Assembly (NCBI GenBank): GCA_029258925.1
Contig: JAPDJV010000014.1
Coordinates: 62,001 to 126,000 of the forward strand
Direction: 5' to 3'
Length of the DNA stretch: 64,000 nucleotides
From: Thermoproteota archaeon
Lineage (GTDB): Archaea; Thermoproteota; Thermoprotei_A; EX4484-217-1; JAPDJV01
The notes under the pieces are model-generated. The model was not told where the DNA came from. It saw nothing but the letters and a program-made list of their open reading frames with translations, and searched no databases. Numbering within the stretch: the first letter of the stretch is position 1; every line of letters starts with the position of its first letter. Both the position numbers and the translations under genes were made by a program. Below are positions 1 to 53,606 of this stretch, in pieces.

Positions 1-1010
1 CCTCCCCAATTACAATATAATCAGCAGACAGCCTAAGAGCATGCTTAACTAACTTGAATATTCCAATACTACCTCTCTCGTCGAGGGTTACAGGGTCTCT
101 TGTAACAAGTGGTATCCAGTAGGGGTGAGCCAATTTTAGTTCTGCCGTGTCTTCAATAGTCACGATTGTTGCTCTCTCCGGTATCATATTTGCTAAAGCA
201 TTTATCATTGAAGTTTTCCCGGTGCCCATAGTCCCTGCTACTAGTATTGCTTTCCTGTGTTCAATCAAAGTCATAAGCCATGCTGCAACTATGGGATCTA
301 TAGTCTCTTTAAGCAGCATCATGGTGATACTCCATGGTCTTTCAGGGAACTTCCTAATAGTAAGGCTCGAACCCCTATGTCCGATCTCTCTTATAAGTTA
401 CAGTTAGTCTGTGTCCTTCAGGAAGCCTTATTGACAGCATGGGTTGATACACACTTATACTCTTCCCACTTAAATGTACAAGTTTTTCAACAAGTTTATC
501 TAATTCCTCATCCGTGAAAACTATGTTGGATACTAGGGGGCCATATATTGAATGCATTATCCTGGCAGGCGTGTCTGGTCCGGGGATTTGAATGTCTTCA
601 ACATAAGGGTCTTTAATAGCTGGTTGAAGAGCGCTGTATCCGGAGATCTCCCTAGATAGAAGGTACACTATTCTATCGTCGCTTATCCCAGCACTTATCA
701 GAATTCTCTGTAGACCGTTCTCTTTAGACGAGATCACATCAGGTATGGTGAATATAAGGTTTTCAGCTTCTCTTTCAGCTGCTTCCAGCTCATACTCTGT
801 TATAGGCGGATCATGTACTAGATATCTTCCATCACTTGTTATGAAGATTGTCGCTAAATCTATTTTATACTCGTCTATAACTGTGCTTCTTGTTGTTCCA
901 TTGAAACTCTTTAGATCAGCGTGAACTACTTTAACCTTTAATCTCCTACTCTTCTCCACCTTCTTTGATAAGCTTATTCTTCTAAATACCATGACTATCA
1001 CTTCAAACAT
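1..1010 (-). pseudogene. Type IV pilus/archaellum-type secretion ATPase (FlaI/GspE family), frameshifted, cut by window edge
   Basis: Hexameric ATPase that powers assembly of archaeal type IV pilus-like filaments at the membrane. The first 211 residues (375-1010) are the N-terminal domain and end in RLTVTYKR followed by a false tail. The next frame (positions 1 to about 384) continues exactly where family members do: EIGHRGSS, then a Walker A P-loop GTMGTGKTS, an acidic TIEDTAEL segment and DYIVIGE (Walker B region) running off the window. The break is in a short AG repeat (plus strand about 384-391); one AG unit fewer than expected gives the shift. This could be a sequencing error, phase variation or a true pseudogene. 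A pilin-like gene lies just upstream on the same strand. Confidence 0.8.
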
Positions 1011-13450: not shown

Positions 13451-16282
13451 CTATCCCTTTACCACCCCTATAGGTCTTAACCTTACTACCAATCGAGCTA
13501 ATCCTACTTCATGTGAAACTTTTGCAACCATATCAACGCTCTTATATGCTTTATCATATTCTTCAGCTAGTACCCTCCTAGTCGCAGCTACCACTAGTAT
13601 TCCTTTAGCCGACATCTCTTTAATTATGTTACTGGGCCTAAACGCTCTTATCGCGGCAGATCTACTCATTAATCTACCCGCTCCATGAGCTGTCGAATAC
13701 CAAGCTGGATTCCCTTTAACCCCCGCTAAAACGTAGCTCGCTGTCCCCATGGAGCCGGGGATTAGAACTATTTGACCTAGATTCCTGTGATCTGCAGGTA
13801 TTTCGGGATGTCCTGGGGGAAATGCCCTCGTAGCACCCTTTCTATGAACTATCAACTTCATTCTCTTGCCGTTTACATCGTGCTCTTCTATTTTAGCTAT
13901 GTTGTGGGCCACGTCGTAAATTAGTGACAGATCGAATGATTCAGGATCCTTGTGGAAAACTTCCTTAAAGCTCTCTCTTATCCAGTGAGTTATTAACTGC
14001 CTATTAGTGAAGGCGTAGTTAACAGCGCAGCTCATTGCCTCAAAGTAGTCCTGGGCCTCGGGGGTTCTAAACGGTAGACATGCTAGCTCCCTTGATGGAG
14101 GCTTAATGCCATATTTCCTCATACTTCTCTCCATTTTCAATAAGTAATCGCTCGCAACTTGGTGGCCCAAACCCCTGCTTCCTGTGTGAACCATTATTGT
14201 AATCTGGCCCTCCCATAATCCTAGAGATTTAGCTATTGACGGATTGAATATTTGATCAACGACTTGGATCTCCAAGAAGTGGTTACCGCTACCTAGTGAT
14301 CCAAGTTGGGGGGCACCTCTCTGCTTAGCTCTACTACTAACCTTATCGGGATTTGCATGAACCATTCTCCCCTTTTCCTCAGTATGTTCAATATCTTCCT
14401 TCCACGCAAATCCCCTATCATACGCCCATTCAAGTCCTCTCTTCAAAACCTCGTTGAGTTCACTTATGCTAAATCTTAATTTAGCGCGCATTCCGAGACC
14501 TGCTGGCACATTTCTCGCAATAACGTTTATAAGCTTCTTAAGGTGGGGCTTCAAGTCGTCGTACGTGAGGTTTGTCCTAATTAGCCTCACTCCGCAGTTC
14601 GAGACCACGAAGCCCTCAGCTACGAAGCTGTGGCTTTCATCAACTACTGTGATATCGTACACTAGCCCACCATATCTCTCAACATTCAGCTCCTCTATCT
14701 CGTCGTAGACAATATCCCCCTCAACGCTCTCAGCGATGAAGTCCTCAAACGTGGTTACGTCCACGAGTGTCTGTGCACCCTCTACAACCTCATAGAGGCT
14801 CCTCTCAATAAATCCCTTATCCACTACACCGTAGGCCCCAGCTAGGACGACTATAGGAGTGCCTTCTGCATGCTCCTCTCTAACCACCTTCCTCAGAATC
14901 TTTCTCTCCTCACCTATCCTCATCTTGAGCCTCAAGTATATTACTGCAGCTAGGGCTAGCCTTCTCCCCTCAATATCATACTCGTAACCGACTCTAGAAT
15001 ACAGCTTAACCAGGTTCTCTGGACTTGTCTCCACCAGCAACTTCCAGCACACTCTATCCTCGGCCTCATAAGTCTTCCTAACAGCAGATCTCACACCGAA
15101 CTCCTCTAGAAGTCTCTTCAAGTCTTCTAGAAGTTCTCTTCCATTCTCAGATAGCTCCCTCACCTTGACTACCTTGAGCTCCGGTATGTAGAAGTTATAC
15201 CCATCAATAGTCTTAGGCTTGGAGAGTTCGGCGCCAAAGTAAGCTGCTAGGAACAACCTTTTCATCCACAACGGTAACCTGAAGATGAACCTTGGTATGC
15301 GATATCTCGTTTCAGGCCTCTTACCCCTAGGATAGCCTAGCTCGTAGAGGAGTTCGACTAGGCTCCTCGCTGAAATCTTCAGTTGATACTCCTCGTGGTT
15401 AAAAGCGAGTTTTCCTGCTCTACGCTTCCTCAAGTATATCGAGGCAGTGTATCCCAGTCTCTCTAAGTCCCTTCTCATCTCCTCAAGGTTCTCTCTTTTA
15501 CCGTAAAGCTGTAGTTGCTCACCTTTAATTGTCCCGTTGCCGATAACGTAGCCTAGAATCTTTAAGAGGTATGGTAGCTTAGGGTTGGTTGAAGTTAAGG
15601 GTAGGAGACCACGTCTCCTTAGCTCTCTTCTCACGCTGTGAGGAAGACCTTCACCGTTAAGTATAGTAAACTCCTCAGGCTCCTCGTAGTCAACGCCCTC
15701 AAAGGGATAGAGAGCGACTTTCATACCCTCCTCCAGCTCCTCAGCTCTAACCATACCCTTTCCTCTGACTAGGATGGGGTGGTCTGAGGACAATTTTAAT
15801 ACGTGGCCGCTTCTAGTCCTCACAACATACAGTCTCTCCTCAGGTCTGCACAAAAATAAAGCTACTTCAGTCTCCTTGAGAACCCCTTTCTCCCTATCTA
15901 CAGCTACAACATTTCCTCCTCTGACAAGACTCTCTATGCTTATCCTGTAGCCCAGTGGCGTCAGAACCTTAGTTCCAGGAGGTAAGCAGTTGATATCGTA
16001 GCCTACTCCACCAGGACTTATAACTCCCTCTTCCACATCAAATGCTGCCACTCCCCCTATAGGGAAACCATATCCTTGGTGCCCGTCCGGCATTACGAAA
16101 ACGGATTTCATAACTCCTGGAAGTGTAGCTACTTGAGCCGCTTGAAGTAATGTCTGGTCTCCTTTCATCTTCGCAAGCAAGTTCTCCTCAGCATATATTA
16201 TCACGGGAACCCTCATACCTTTATAAGAGTCTTCTGGAATTTTCCAGGTATACTTGTCTATCTTCTCTAGTTTAATGACCAT
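13451..16282 (-). CDS. rtcB: RNA-splicing ligase RtcB precursor with intein
   Basis: Joins tRNA and mRNA exons after BHB cleavage by forming a 3'-5' phosphodiester bond with GTP and Mn. The host protein is about 479 residues after removing a 464-residue intein (residues 99-562). Host blocks include MPDGHQGYGFPIGG, GVGYDIN followed after the intein by CGVRLIRTNL, HTGSRGLGHQV and the GTP-linked histidine region near HGAGRLMSR. The insertion sits exactly before the cysteine that binds catalytic Mn. Length and termini match archaeal RtcB. Archease, its activator, is 3 kb away. Confidence 0.96.
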   Translation of the reverse strand: MVIKLEKIDKYTWKIPEDSYKGMRVPVIIYAEENLLAKMKGDQTLLQAAQVATLPGVMKSVFVMPDGHQGYGFPIGGVAAFDVEEGVISPGGVGYDINCLPPGTKVLTPLGYRISIESLVRGGNVVAVDREKGVLKETEVALFLCRPEERLYVVRTRSGHVLKLSSDHPILVRGKGMVRAEELEEGMKVALYPFEGVDYEEPEEFTILNGEGLPHSVRRELRRRGLLPLTSTNPKLPYLLKILGYVIGNGTIKGEQLQLYGKRENLEEMRRDLERLGYTASIYLRKRRAGKLAFNHEEYQLKISARSLVELLYELGYPRGKRPETRYRIPRFIFRLPLWMKRLFLAAYFGAELSKPKTIDGYNFYIPELKVVKVRELSENGRELLEDLKRLLEEFGVRSAVRKTYEAEDRVCWKLLVETSPENLVKLYSRVGYEYDIEGRRLALAAVIYLRLKMRIGEERKILRKVVREEHAEGTPIVVLAGAYGVVDKGFIERSLYEVVEGAQTLVDVTTFEDFIAESVEGDIVYDEIEELNVERYGGLVYDITVVDESHSFVAEGFVVSNCGVRLIRTNLTYDDLKPHLKKLINVIARNVPAGLGMRAKLRFSISELNEVLKRGLEWAYDRGFAWKEDIEHTEEKGRMVHANPDKVSSRAKQRGAPQLGSLGSGNHFLEIQVVDQIFNPSIAKSLGLWEGQITIMVHTGSRGLGHQVASDYLLKMERSMRKYGIKPPSRELACLPFRTPEAQDYFEAMSCAVNYAFTNRQLITHWIRESFKEVFHKDPESFDLSLIYDVAHNIAKIEEHDVNGKRMKLIVHRKGATRAFPPGHPEIPADHRNLGQIVLIPGSMGTASYVLAGVKGNPAWYSTAHGAGRLMSRSAAIRAFRPSNIIKEMSAKGILVVAATRRVLAEEYDKAYKSVDMVAKVSHEVGLARLVVRLRPIGVVKG
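14597..15988 (-). other. Intein within RtcB (with degenerate LAGLIDADG endonuclease)
   Basis: Self-splicing protein element, residues 99-562 of the precursor. It begins CLPPGTKVLTPLG (Cys1, block A) and ends FVAEGFVVSN followed by Cys+1. Block B is seen at SSDHPILV. A dodecapeptide endonuclease region follows: LGYVIGNGTI, where the usual catalytic Asp is Asn, and LAAYFGAEL, where Glu replaces Asp. The endonuclease is probably weak or dead. The residue before the terminal Asn is Ser rather than the common His. Splicing-essential Cys1, block B His, terminal Asn and Cys+1 are all present. Confidence 0.93.
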
Positions 16283-19466: not shown

Positions 19467-19910
19467 GTGCATGAGTTGGCAGGAGGCTTCAGATTCCTCG
19501 AGCATACGGCTGACGCGTATGTTGAAGTATGGGGAGAGACACTTGAAGAATTGTTTGAGTATGCTGCTATCTCTATGTTTGAAGTAATGGTAGATACCAG
19601 AAGTGTAGAGCCAAAATACGGTTATGATGTTAAAGTATCTGGTATGGACCTGGAAAACTTAATGTATAAATGGCTTGAGGAATGGCTTATAATCCACAGT
19701 ATTGAAAACGTTGTGTTTTCTAAATTTAAAGTTTTCAATATTGTGAAGGGGGAAGAAAACACTCTTACGATTCTAGGCAAAGGGTGGGGTGAACCCTTAG
19801 ACTATGATAGACACGATGTGAAAACAGAGGTTAAAGCAGTCACATACTCCAATATGATGATAAGGAAAATGGATGGAAAATGGCTTGCACGCATAGTCTT
19901 CGACATATAA
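19467..19910 (+). CDS. Archease (RtcB activator)
   Basis: 147-residue protein chaperone that speeds RtcB guanylylation and turnover. The family signature GGFRFLEHTADAYVEVWG is at the N terminus, and the conserved acidic calcium-binding residues are within LDYDRHDVKTEVKAVTYSNM near the C terminus, which ends ARIVFDI. It starts at GTG 19467 or TTG 19476. It lies about 3 kb from rtcB in this window, on the opposite strand. Confidence 0.94.
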   Translation: MHELAGGFRFLEHTADAYVEVWGETLEELFEYAAISMFEVMVDTRSVEPKYGYDVKVSGMDLENLMYKWLEEWLIIHSIENVVFSKFKVFNIVKGEENTLTILGKGWGEPLDYDRHDVKTEVKAVTYSNMMIRKMDGKWLARIVFDI

Positions 19911-19947: not shown

Positions 19948-21029
19948 TTAAGTTAAACCAGCCTTACCACTTTTCCACATTCTAGGATAGGTTCCAGGTT
20001 CCATTAGAACTCTTCTAGTTTTCACAGCAATGCCCCTATCCGCATCTAATATCTTGTTCACGGACATTAACATTTGTCCAACAGCTACAAGTTCTCCTTT
20101 AAGAGTTAATATAGCAACTCTCCTTCTAGTTAATGCATCCTCGCTTATCATAACTATCCCGGGAACCGCTAGATCTGCCCCATGACATATTGCATCGACA
20201 GCGGAGTCTCTAATCACAACCTTCGGCATATTACAAACCGCGTACTCCATGGGCATTATGGCTTTTCTAAGGAGGTCCTCCTTACCTTCGTAGATCCATC
20301 TATAGTATGCATCAGCTAAGTCTTGCATTCTAACGAGGTTTTTATTCTCGGTGAATGGGCCAACTCTAGTTCTTCTAAGCTCTCTCATATGAGCTCCTAC
20401 TCCCAAAATTAAGCCCACATCATGGCATATCTTCCTGATATATGTTCCTGCCTCACATAAGACCTTAAACAATACCAGTCTATCAGTCATTTCTAGAAAC
20501 TCTATATTAAACACGCGTTTAATTCTCAAAGCCCTCTTCACACGGGACCTTAAGGGAGGTTTTTGATAAATTTTGTCCACGAACATTTTCAATACTTCTT
20601 CGACTCTACTCTCAGGGACTGTCCCGTGAAGTTGCATTACACACACATATTCCTTTACAGTATGTGTCACAATGGAGATTAATGGAGTTGCCTTTTCTAG
20701 AGCTACGGGAAGCACTCCAGTAACCTTCGGGTATCTCCGCCTCAGGCCATGTAGCCTAGAGGCTCTAGAGTACCCCCATGACCTGCCTTCTTCAAGTTAA
20801 ACATCTTCTTTATCCATGCAACAACCTCATGGCTTGTGGGTCCAGGGGGCTTATCCAAGTTTATTATCCCGCGTTTAATGTAATCCTCCATGCTTCTCTT
20901 AACTGGTAAACATCCGTATGAAGGATCGGTCTCAGCCTCATCCCTAATAATGAGTCTCGCTGTATTTCCACAGAATTCGTTGATTTCATTAATAAACTTG
21001 AGTCCCTCCTTTAATACATCGGCCTTCAC
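19948..21029 (-). CDS. cbf5: Cbf5 (TruB family) rRNA/tRNA pseudouridine synthase, mRNA with BHB intron
   Basis: Catalytic subunit of H/ACA RNPs. The track shows it as two ORFs (20742-21050 and 19948-20715), but these are exons of one gene. Exon 1 ends GHGGTL plus GA and exon 2 begins C CCG AAG, so removal of 32 bases restores GHGGTLDPKVTGVLPVA with the catalytic Asp. The C-terminal PUA domain follows (KVVIRDSAVDAICHGADLAVPG). GTG 21029 is the likely start because GAGGTGAG precedes it by six bases; the product is about 349 residues. Crenarchaeal cbf5 introns are an established case. Confidence 0.93.
20733..20764 (-). other. Archaeal BHB-type intron in cbf5
   Basis: 32-base insertion, so out of frame if unspliced. 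The RNA folds with an inner hairpin GCCUC...GAGGC (with a second AGGC/GCCU stem above it). A four-pair central helix of exon CUCU with intron GGAG (one U-G pair) follows. Three-base bulges AGA (5' site) and AUA (3' site) are cut after their second base. Both predicted cuts give the Asp codon GAC. The outer exon stem GGGUA/UACCC competes with the 3' bulge. Confidence 0.85.
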
Positions 21030-21121
21030 AAATCTCACCTCGATATACAATATGAATTAAGAACTAATTAAATAAATTTACATGGCTTAAGTGACTCAAT
21101 TATCAGAAACAGCATTTAGCG

Positions 21122-50438: not shown

Positions 50439-50528
<90 letters not shown>

Positions 50529-51676: not shown

Positions 51677-52984
51677 CTACCACTTCATTCTGTTTAGGAT
51701 TATAGCTTTTTGTATCTGTGGTAGGGACTTCCACCTCGCCCATAGGGATTTAGCTATCCCTATGGGGTCATGGGTGGCTGTCATGGGGAACGGAACGCTC
51801 CATCCATCTACGTTTAACCCTGCGGGGCTTGGAGCATTGCCCCCATCACCCCGTAGGGCTTTAAGGAGAAGATTCCAACAGACAAGTATATCTCGGTGCC
51901 ATAGCTCTCCTCCTTTACTACACTTACCTATCCTTGAGCCGTTACCGTAGTTTATCGGTGAGTTATGGATTGGATATAGCTCTGAAGTATTCTTCGGGTT
52001 TACGTAGACTATCAGTACACCGTACTCCCTAGCCTTCTCCTCAATAGCTCTCTGAACACCTCTGAAGGAAGCCTGAAACATTCTATGTCTTAACTGTTTA
52101 TCCTTTATCCTCTTAATCATATTGTTAGCTGGTTTCTTACCAAGCTTCTCAAGAACAATAGCATATTGCTTCCCATAAGCGGTTCTAACGATTATGTTGG
52201 CTATCTTCCATCTAATGTCAAGCTTCTTTCTCCTCTCTCTCAACTTCTTCATTACTCTTCTCTTAATCCTAGACTTTACACCATAGAGCCTATCATACCT
52301 TTCCTGAATCCTCTTCCTACGATAATAGTATCCTAAGACCAATTTCTCAGCATTAGTCTCAAAGAGGTAAGCCACGCCATCAACTAACATTGTTACATTG
52401 TTCTCATTTACATCAACAGGTAAGTAGCCTTTAGGCTTGTACTCATTAATATCCTTGACAAAGGTTAGGTAGATAACTAGCTGTCTACTCCTCTTATCAA
52501 GTTTAATCTTGGCTTCGCTTGCTAGCCTCCATCCACGATTGATATACTTCCAGTACTGATTGTGCAGTTCAAGCTCTACTGTTATCCATCTTCTATGGGT
52601 AGCTATCCTAATGGATGTTAGTCCATTAGGCTTCCATAGGTGGTCGTCAAACCAGATACTAACCCTCCTAATCTCAGGATATTCTCTTTCGGCTAACCCA
52701 AGCTTCTTTAGTTTAAGGAAGCTCTTGGCTCTAGTACTAGCGTCTTGACAGGCTGTGTAGACGTAATGTGAAGGTAACTGTGGATATAGGCTTCTCATTT
52801 CACGGTACTTTAATGCTTTGAGCTTAGTGAAGCTCTTAATATTGTTATTTACAGCATACATTGTTAGTTGTTCAACCATGTTACGATACATACCCTCAAC
52901 TTCAACAAATACCCTAAACAGCTTCCTCGGTATCTTCACGCTCTTCACCATGACAGTCCTAGTTATTCTAGTCATTCTTCTCAA
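51677..52984 (-). CDS. tnpB: TnpB (IS607/IS605 OrfB) RNA-guided nuclease-like
   Basis: 435-residue TnpB. RuvC-I Asp lies in PVDVNENNVTML, RuvC-II Glu in VLEKLG and RuvC-III Asp in WHRDILVCWNLL. The zinc finger that normally has four cysteines (CPxCG ... CxxCG) is reduced to YPIH and KCSKGG, so it may be impaired. The C-terminal tail has thirty or more residues beyond the domain. TnpB proteins use a guide RNA from the element's end to cut DNA. It may be inactive given degenerate parts and the broken tnpA. Confidence 0.88.
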   Translation of the reverse strand: MRRMTRITRTVMVKSVKIPRKLFRVFVEVEGMYRNMVEQLTMYAVNNNIKSFTKLKALKYREMRSLYPQLPSHYVYTACQDASTRAKSFLKLKKLGLAEREYPEIRRVSIWFDDHLWKPNGLTSIRIATHRRWITVELELHNQYWKYINRGWRLASEAKIKLDKRSRQLVIYLTFVKDINEYKPKGYLPVDVNENNVTMLVDGVAYLFETNAEKLVLGYYYRRKRIQERYDRLYGVKSRIKRRVMKKLRERRKKLDIRWKIANIIVRTAYGKQYAIVLEKLGKKPANNMIKRIKDKQLRHRMFQASFRGVQRAIEEKAREYGVLIVYVNPKNTSELYPIHNSPINYGNGSRIGKCSKGGELWHRDILVCWNLLLKALRGDGGNAPSPAGLNVDGWSVPFPMTATHDPIGIAKSLWARWKSLPQIQKAIILNRMKW

Positions 52985-53606
52985 CCTCCTCTAGCAATTG
53001 TTTAAATCTTTGAACTGAGCGTTTCTTCTTGTGAATCCTCATGCCGTATAGCTTACCAGCAAATGAGGTAACTATCGCTAGTAAATCCTCAACAAGCTCT
53101 TGGTAAGCATTCTTAGGCTCTTCGCCATAGACAACCTCTATTCCTACACCATATTGTTTGAAGAAGTACTCAAGATACTCAAACCCGAAGCGAGTAAGTC
53201 TATCCTCGTATGTTACAACAACTACATCTACTTCTCTATTCACTACATGTCTGAAGAGCTTATGTAATCCTCTACGATTAGTTTTAAGACCGCTAGCTAT
53301 GTCGCTTAGAACATCTACTACCTTGTATCCCTTAGCGGAACAGTGCTGAGTAGGGTATTCTATTTGTCTTTCCAAGTCTTTCCTTTAGTCTGAAGAGCTA
53401 ACACGAGCATAAATGATTGCCCTAACTTCCTTAACTCCTTCTCTCCCGCCTATAATCCTCTCTATCTCACTCTCTGGTATCATCCACCTACCAGTAGGAG
53501 TTCTAACCGCTCTAATCTTACCAGAGTAAATCCGCCTCTTCAAAGTAATAAAGCTAATACCAAGACGCTTACACGCCTCCCTCGGCGGTAGCAATCTTTC
53601 TGTCAT
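52968..53606 (-). pseudogene. tnpA: TnpA serine recombinase (IS607) with in-frame stop
   Basis: Two track ORFs (53385-53606 and 52968-53375) are one gene in the same frame. The first 73 codons hold the HTH (PREACKRLGISFITLKRRIYSGKIRAVRTPTGR) and the start of the catalytic domain IIYARVSSSD with the serine. Codon 74 is TAA, where family members have CAA (Gln), and then RKDLERQIEYPTQ continues normally to the end (212 residues by read-through). A single C to T change explains it. A second start codon TTG 53375 follows the stop. Confidence 0.88.

Follow-up and report, generated by a model that had tools for sequence, protein, structure and literature searches.

Gene structure of the cbf5 locus

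The stretch of DNA that we analysed (the window, 64,000 nucleotides of a Thermoproteota archaeon whose genome is a fragmented draft assembly) carries on its minus strand two ORFs, 21050-20742 and 20715-19948, which lie in different frames and resemble a frameshifted cbf5, the gene of an essential enzyme of RNA modification. Cutting out the 32 nt at 20733-20764 fuses both into one uninterrupted full-length Cbf5, as the first-pass annotation had proposed, and the predicted 349-aa product bears this out, with DKCLD, TruB_N, TruB_C_2 and PUA domains (Pfam) and a match over 318 residues to archaeal Cbf5 structures (PDB 2hvy, E = 7e-114). The claim that this removal rebuilds GGTLDPKV likewise stands, the motif GGTLDPKVTG being intact in the spliced translation. 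The GTG at 21029, which agrees with the end coordinate given for the gene earlier, is likely the start codon and is preceded by a Shine-Dalgarno-like sequence. Read without splicing, exon 1 ends in ...GGTLEPLGYMA-stop, with the catalytic Asp changed to Glu, and neither half alone holds the complete catalytic motif. The features of the locus are collected in Table 1.

Table 1. Features of the cbf5 locus and of the candidate exon-joining genes in the window
Feature	Position	Strand	Evidence or remark
cbf5 exon 1	20765-21029	-	GTG start 21029-21027; DKCLD domain; 3' end ...GGT ACT CTA G
Shine-Dalgarno-like GAGGTGA	21035-21041	-	Sequence, ahead of the GTG start
cbf5 intron, 32 nt, AGCCTCTAGGCTACATGGCCTGAGGCGGAGAT	20733-20764	-	Predicted cut G|AC in the catalytic Asp codon
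cbf5 exon 2	19948-20732	-	Remaining TruB_N, TruB_C_2, PUA, stop
In-frame TGA within the intron	20742-20744	-	Terminates translation of the unspliced mRNA
BHB central helix, 5' strand CUCU (exon 1)	20767-20770	-	Helix scan, fold, covariation
BHB central helix, 3' strand GGAG (intron)	20735-20738	-	Covaries with exon 1 in relatives
5' bulge AGA, predicted cut after AG	20764-20766	-	Helix scan
3' bulge AUA, predicted cut after AU	20732-20734	-	May pair partly with exon 1: unconventional BHB
Inner helix, 5' strand GCCUC	20759-20763	-	Helix scan, fold
Inner helix, 3' strand GAGGC	20739-20743	-	Helix scan, fold
RtcB RNA ligase with in-frame intein, candidate exon ligase	13451-16282	-	Pfam RtcB 3e-169, Intein_splicing 2e-13, LAGLIDADG_3 1e-11
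Archease, RtcB cofactor	19467-19910	+	Pfam PF01951 6e-46

The junction is predicted to form an unconventional bulge-helix-bulge

At the RNA level, the junction reads 5'-GGGUA-CUCU-AG^A-GCCUC...GAGGC-GGAG-AU^A-CCCG-3' (^, predicted cuts), which corresponds to a bulge-helix-bulge (BHB) element. The four-base central helix and the bulge AGA described in the first-pass annotation are both real: CUCU:GGAG is paired at 4/4 positions (three Watson-Crick pairs and one G-U), the inner helix GCCUC:GAGGC at 5/5, and the 5' bulge measures 3 nt. That both bulges comprise three bases held for AGA and failed for AUA, which is not in the lowest-energy register. In the minimum-energy fold of a 47-nt core, the pairing GGGUA:UACCC joins exon 1 to the U-A of AUA and leaves a 1-nt second bulge, at -17.8 kcal/mol versus -13.3 kcal/mol when both bulges are kept at 3 nt (both values without the apical hairpin), and folding at 70 and 85°C keeps the same ranking of the two bulge forms. 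When 86 nt are folded, an alternative pairing between the two exons outcompetes the BHB. According to this modelling, the BHB of the window is unconventional, in that the second bulge and the outer helix deviate. Most cbf5 introns have an unconventional BHB, which has been ascribed to recognition by a hetero-oligomeric endonuclease (Yokobori 2009, PMC2738675).

The position of the intron in the catalytic Asp codon, as claimed earlier, is confirmed by the spliced translation and by the junctions of relatives. The assigned codon split GA|C requires correction: the coordinates 20733-20764 and a cut after the second bulge base give G|AC. The protein alone cannot choose between the two because a repeated A permits a slide of 1 nt, so that removing 20732-20763 with the split GA|C leaves an mRNA identical to that obtained from 20733-20764 with G|AC. 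In either register the cut falls after the first (or second) base of the GGTLDP Asp codon, matching the other junctions found, and the length of 32 nt falls within the 16 to 44 nt published for cbf5 introns (PMC2738675). The choice of this site may be explained by the coding sequence, since GGN-ACN-CTN-GAY-CCN, which codes for GTLDP, readily gives one half of a BHB (GGGA...UCCC).

The intron and its helices are maintained among relatives

To place the junction among other cbf5 genes, we sampled the window's order (three further genomes, two of them with cbf5), 229 genomes of its class and 397 of its phylum, together with 148 genomes of the Asgard phylum, 80 named contigs and about 120 extra regions, and located the junctions by script. 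Both same-order relatives with cbf5 carry introns at the identical position (42 nt in G001 and 67 nt in G003). The whole sample yielded 111 distinct intron-bearing junctions of 13 to 76 nt, one of which (L189, 13 nt) is a doubtful member, and all are cut at the same nucleotide of the same codon, which answers the question of intron position that the comparison with other cbf5 genes had been meant to settle. Long apparent introns 14 to 18 nt ahead of the Asp codon (for example in L042, L057, L069, L078 and L220) were an artefact of motif-start scoring that arose from variable residues, and were dropped.

The central helix is paired at 4/4 positions in 109 of the 111 junctions and the inner helix at 4/4 in 96. 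Jointly, the two helices average 7.77 of their 8 possible pairs when the predicted sites are used, which exceeds chance, given that sliding one or both sites by up to 6 nt lowers the mean to between 1.8 and 4.9 (1.8 to 4.2 when both are slid). The central and inner helices also covary across relatives. At central pair 2, where the third base of the exon 1 Thr codon meets the 3' end of the intron, the pair is CG, UA or AU, the window being one of the UA cases, and about 10 changes per side were counted on the tree, a count that respects relatedness. Six pairs vary on both of their strands, and among 500 shuffles, which ignore relatedness, none attained the pairing observed for these six. The constraint reaches into the coding sequence: the third base of the exonic Leu codon doubles as the first base of the 5' bulge, and CUA is used there in 95 of 110 genes with the intron versus 15 of 116 without it, a bias indicating that the RNA element limits the choice of exon sequence.

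These comparisons bear on three other explanations of the locus. A gene decaying into a pseudogene, or one affected by a frameshift or misassembly, would likewise read as two ORFs out of frame with each other and a stop. However, the insert is 32 nt rather than 1 or 2 nt long, Cbf5 is fully conserved on both of its flanks, and the 1.75-Mb genome, at a completeness of 98.4%, contains no other cbf5. Moreover, same-site inserts that differ in length and sequence occur in both same-order genomes and at more than 100 other junctions, with covarying structure; the introns of G001 and G003 in particular argue that the insert is not a sequencing error, and we consider this explanation highly improbable. 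Alternatively, the gene could be truly split, the product of exon 1 assembling without splicing with a polypeptide initiated at the internal GTG at 20715, which indeed opens a 255-aa ORF. Yet the first piece would lack the catalytic Asp and the second would begin only downstream of PKVTG. Some relatives, but not the window, have an intron length divisible by three, and the RNA element itself has been conserved. Together, these points leave very little room for this reading. Finally, ribosomes might bypass the 32 nt, or shift frame across them, without any removal of RNA, a scenario that would fit the stable hairpin within the skipped segment. Lengths of 13 to 76 nt that span all three phases at a single site are, however, ill suited to frameshifting. 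EndA requires the very helices that covary, and cDNA from other species shows RNA removal (PMC2738675), so that we give bypassing hardly any credence.

The genome encodes candidate splicing enzymes

Two genes with the EndA domain PF01974 are located outside the window, on contigs C23 and C31. EndA alpha resembles the catalytic chain of PDB 3p1z (3p1z_B, 2e-60) and EndA beta its partner (3p1z_A, 3e-10), and the genome thus encodes both subunits of a hetero-oligomeric (alpha-beta) EndA, whose assembly into a complex is predicted. The first-pass annotation had also placed within the window the ligase that would join the exons, and Pfam agrees, identifying an RtcB gene as well as an archease. Neither gene was found beside cbf5 in any of 71 other related loci, which rules out a conserved splicing cassette of RtcB or archease with cbf5 and suggests that their closeness in the window is probably due to chance. 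RtcB, which probably ligates the exons, in turn has its reading frame interrupted by an intein that contains a LAGLIDADG domain.

With gene structure, restored protein, RNA element, covariation and enzyme genes read from the sequence, and cleavage and ligation, including their chemistry, proposed on the basis of the motif, the enzymes and experimental work on other species, we conclude that the locus almost certainly produces a cbf5 pre-mRNA with a 32-nt BHB intron that is cut by EndA and joined by RtcB/archease. Exon 1, the intron and exon 2 would fold into the BHB and be recognised by (alpha-beta)2 EndA, which would cut after AG in the 5' bulge and after AU in the 3' bulge. RtcB, with archease, would then ligate the exons, rebuilding the Asp codon (G+AC) and giving rise to an active 349-aa Cbf5, while the unspliced mRNA would yield only an inactive fragment of about 95 aa. 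In other crenarchaea, splicing of the cbf5 intron has been demonstrated by cDNA and is EndA dependent (PMC2738675).

Relation to known introns

That cbf5 introns are established in crenarchaea, as stated in the first-pass annotation, agrees with the published record (PMC2738675), and by its sequence the intron of the window represents the archaeal cbf5 pre-mRNA intron already described (Yokobori 2009). It shares with the cbf5 intron of Desulfurococcales and Sulfolobales (Watanabe 2002, as cited) the gene, the catalytic Asp codon, the size range, the mostly unconventional BHB and a host with hetero-oligomeric EndA; the host here, in contrast, belongs to a small separate order alongside these two, and the 67 nt of one same-order relative exceed the published maximum. 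Archaeal tRNA and rRNA BHB introns have a cleavage motif of the same type and, as predicted here, the same kind of enzymes, but the exon half of the cbf5 motif codes for protein and is bound by the GGTLDP peptide. The other archaeal mRNA substrate of EndA sits in a leader and rebuilds no codon, whereas the cbf5 intron lies in coding sequence; a 2020 paper names the cbf5 intron, in crenarchaeota, as the only other BHB intron reported in archaeal mRNA. What is new is the constancy of the cut across 111 junctions, the covariation of the helices, the CUA bias and the wider range of the intron. In annotation, cbf5 of this lineage will appear broken unless the intron is modelled.

Phylogenetic spread and age of the cbf5 intron

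In a tree of 218 Cbf5 proteins, the window's order (four genomes) is sister to Desulfurococcales plus Sulfolobales with a branch support of 95 to 97. The window groups with G001, G003 and the intronless L007 (support 67), beside the Desulfurococcales-Sulfolobales set. This near neighbour, L007 (SZUA-1508), shares 63% identity over exon 2 and offers a natural intron-free comparison. Intronless loci include those labelled Pyrodictiaceae, in agreement with Yokobori et al. (PMC2738675). Overall, the presence of the intron requires at least 19 changes on the tree, versus at least 64 with shuffled labels. Most loci share the neighbourhood rpl34e-cmk-rpl14e-cbf5, as would be expected of a resident gene more than of a mobile one.

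The intron of the window is itself of a known kind; what surprises is its phylogenetic spread. Introns were found in loci labelled Bathyarchaeota (L045, L051, L060, L065 and L068) and Culexarchaeia/Methanomethylicota (L022, L037, L039 and L041), in the Jordarchaeia loci L038 and L044, with which L221 (on a 1.1-Mb contig) and L222 group, and in two further sets of the Asgard phylum (L225, L226, L227 and L234; L235 and L240); these labels come from the records or from the phylum searched, and short contigs among them could carry binning errors. In the Asgard, Bathyarchaeota and Culexarchaeia introns, the cut nucleotide is unchanged and the helix is compensated, with central helices CACU:GGUG or CACU:AGUG, and CUUU:GAAG, in the Asgard sets. 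As judged from these sequences, the cbf5 intron spans Bathyarchaeia, Culexarchaeia/Methanomethylicota and at least three Asgard groups, which is beyond its published range; a literature search, with subscription papers outside its reach, returned no report of a cbf5 intron in Asgard or Bathyarchaeia.

Yokobori et al. (2009, PMC2738675) traced the intron back to the ancestor of Desulfurococcales and Sulfolobales. In our data set, a single old gain followed by losses and several gains at one site would both fit, since support is weak in the deep part of the tree. It is tempting to speculate that the intron did not originate in the crenarchaea, having been present in the common ancestor of Thermoproteota and Asgard, or having hit the same nucleotide repeatedly since then, a proposal for and against which we find the balance even. 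If true, it would be among the oldest positionally conserved introns of archaeal protein genes. The eukaryotic homologue of Cbf5 is dyskerin. Through the occurrences in Bathyarchaeia, Culexarchaeia and Asgard, both the age of the intron and the reason for its placement in the catalytic codon become testable.

Among the Asgard genomes, five (G584, G611, G612, G615 and G667) match Cbf5 in two pieces about 1.4 to 2 kb apart within one open frame of 836 to 867 aa, probably reflecting an in-frame intein at a site that differs from that of the intron. Another, G648, has two cbf5-like loci with frames of 343 and 266 aa, the latter of which may be interrupted.

Other features of the window

Three further features of the window were recorded. 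At 50439-50528 (plus strand), ARAGORN calls a tRNA-Ala(AGC), which is better read as a tRNA-Thr(CGU) with a non-canonical intron of about 14 nt in the D arm, GGUAG[ggttctaagccgaa]AGCGCUGGCCUCGUAAGCCAG. A gene for a type IV secretion/archaellum-like ATPase (375-1010, minus strand, and L293 1885-2880) has an apparent 1-nt frameshift near 375-390 (...TYKRD / GHRGSSLTIRKFPERPW...), which could be an error, a pseudogene or recoding. Lastly, judging from their translations, a pair of ORFs at 51677-53375 (minus strand) resembles a transposon with an IS607-type serine recombinase and TnpB.
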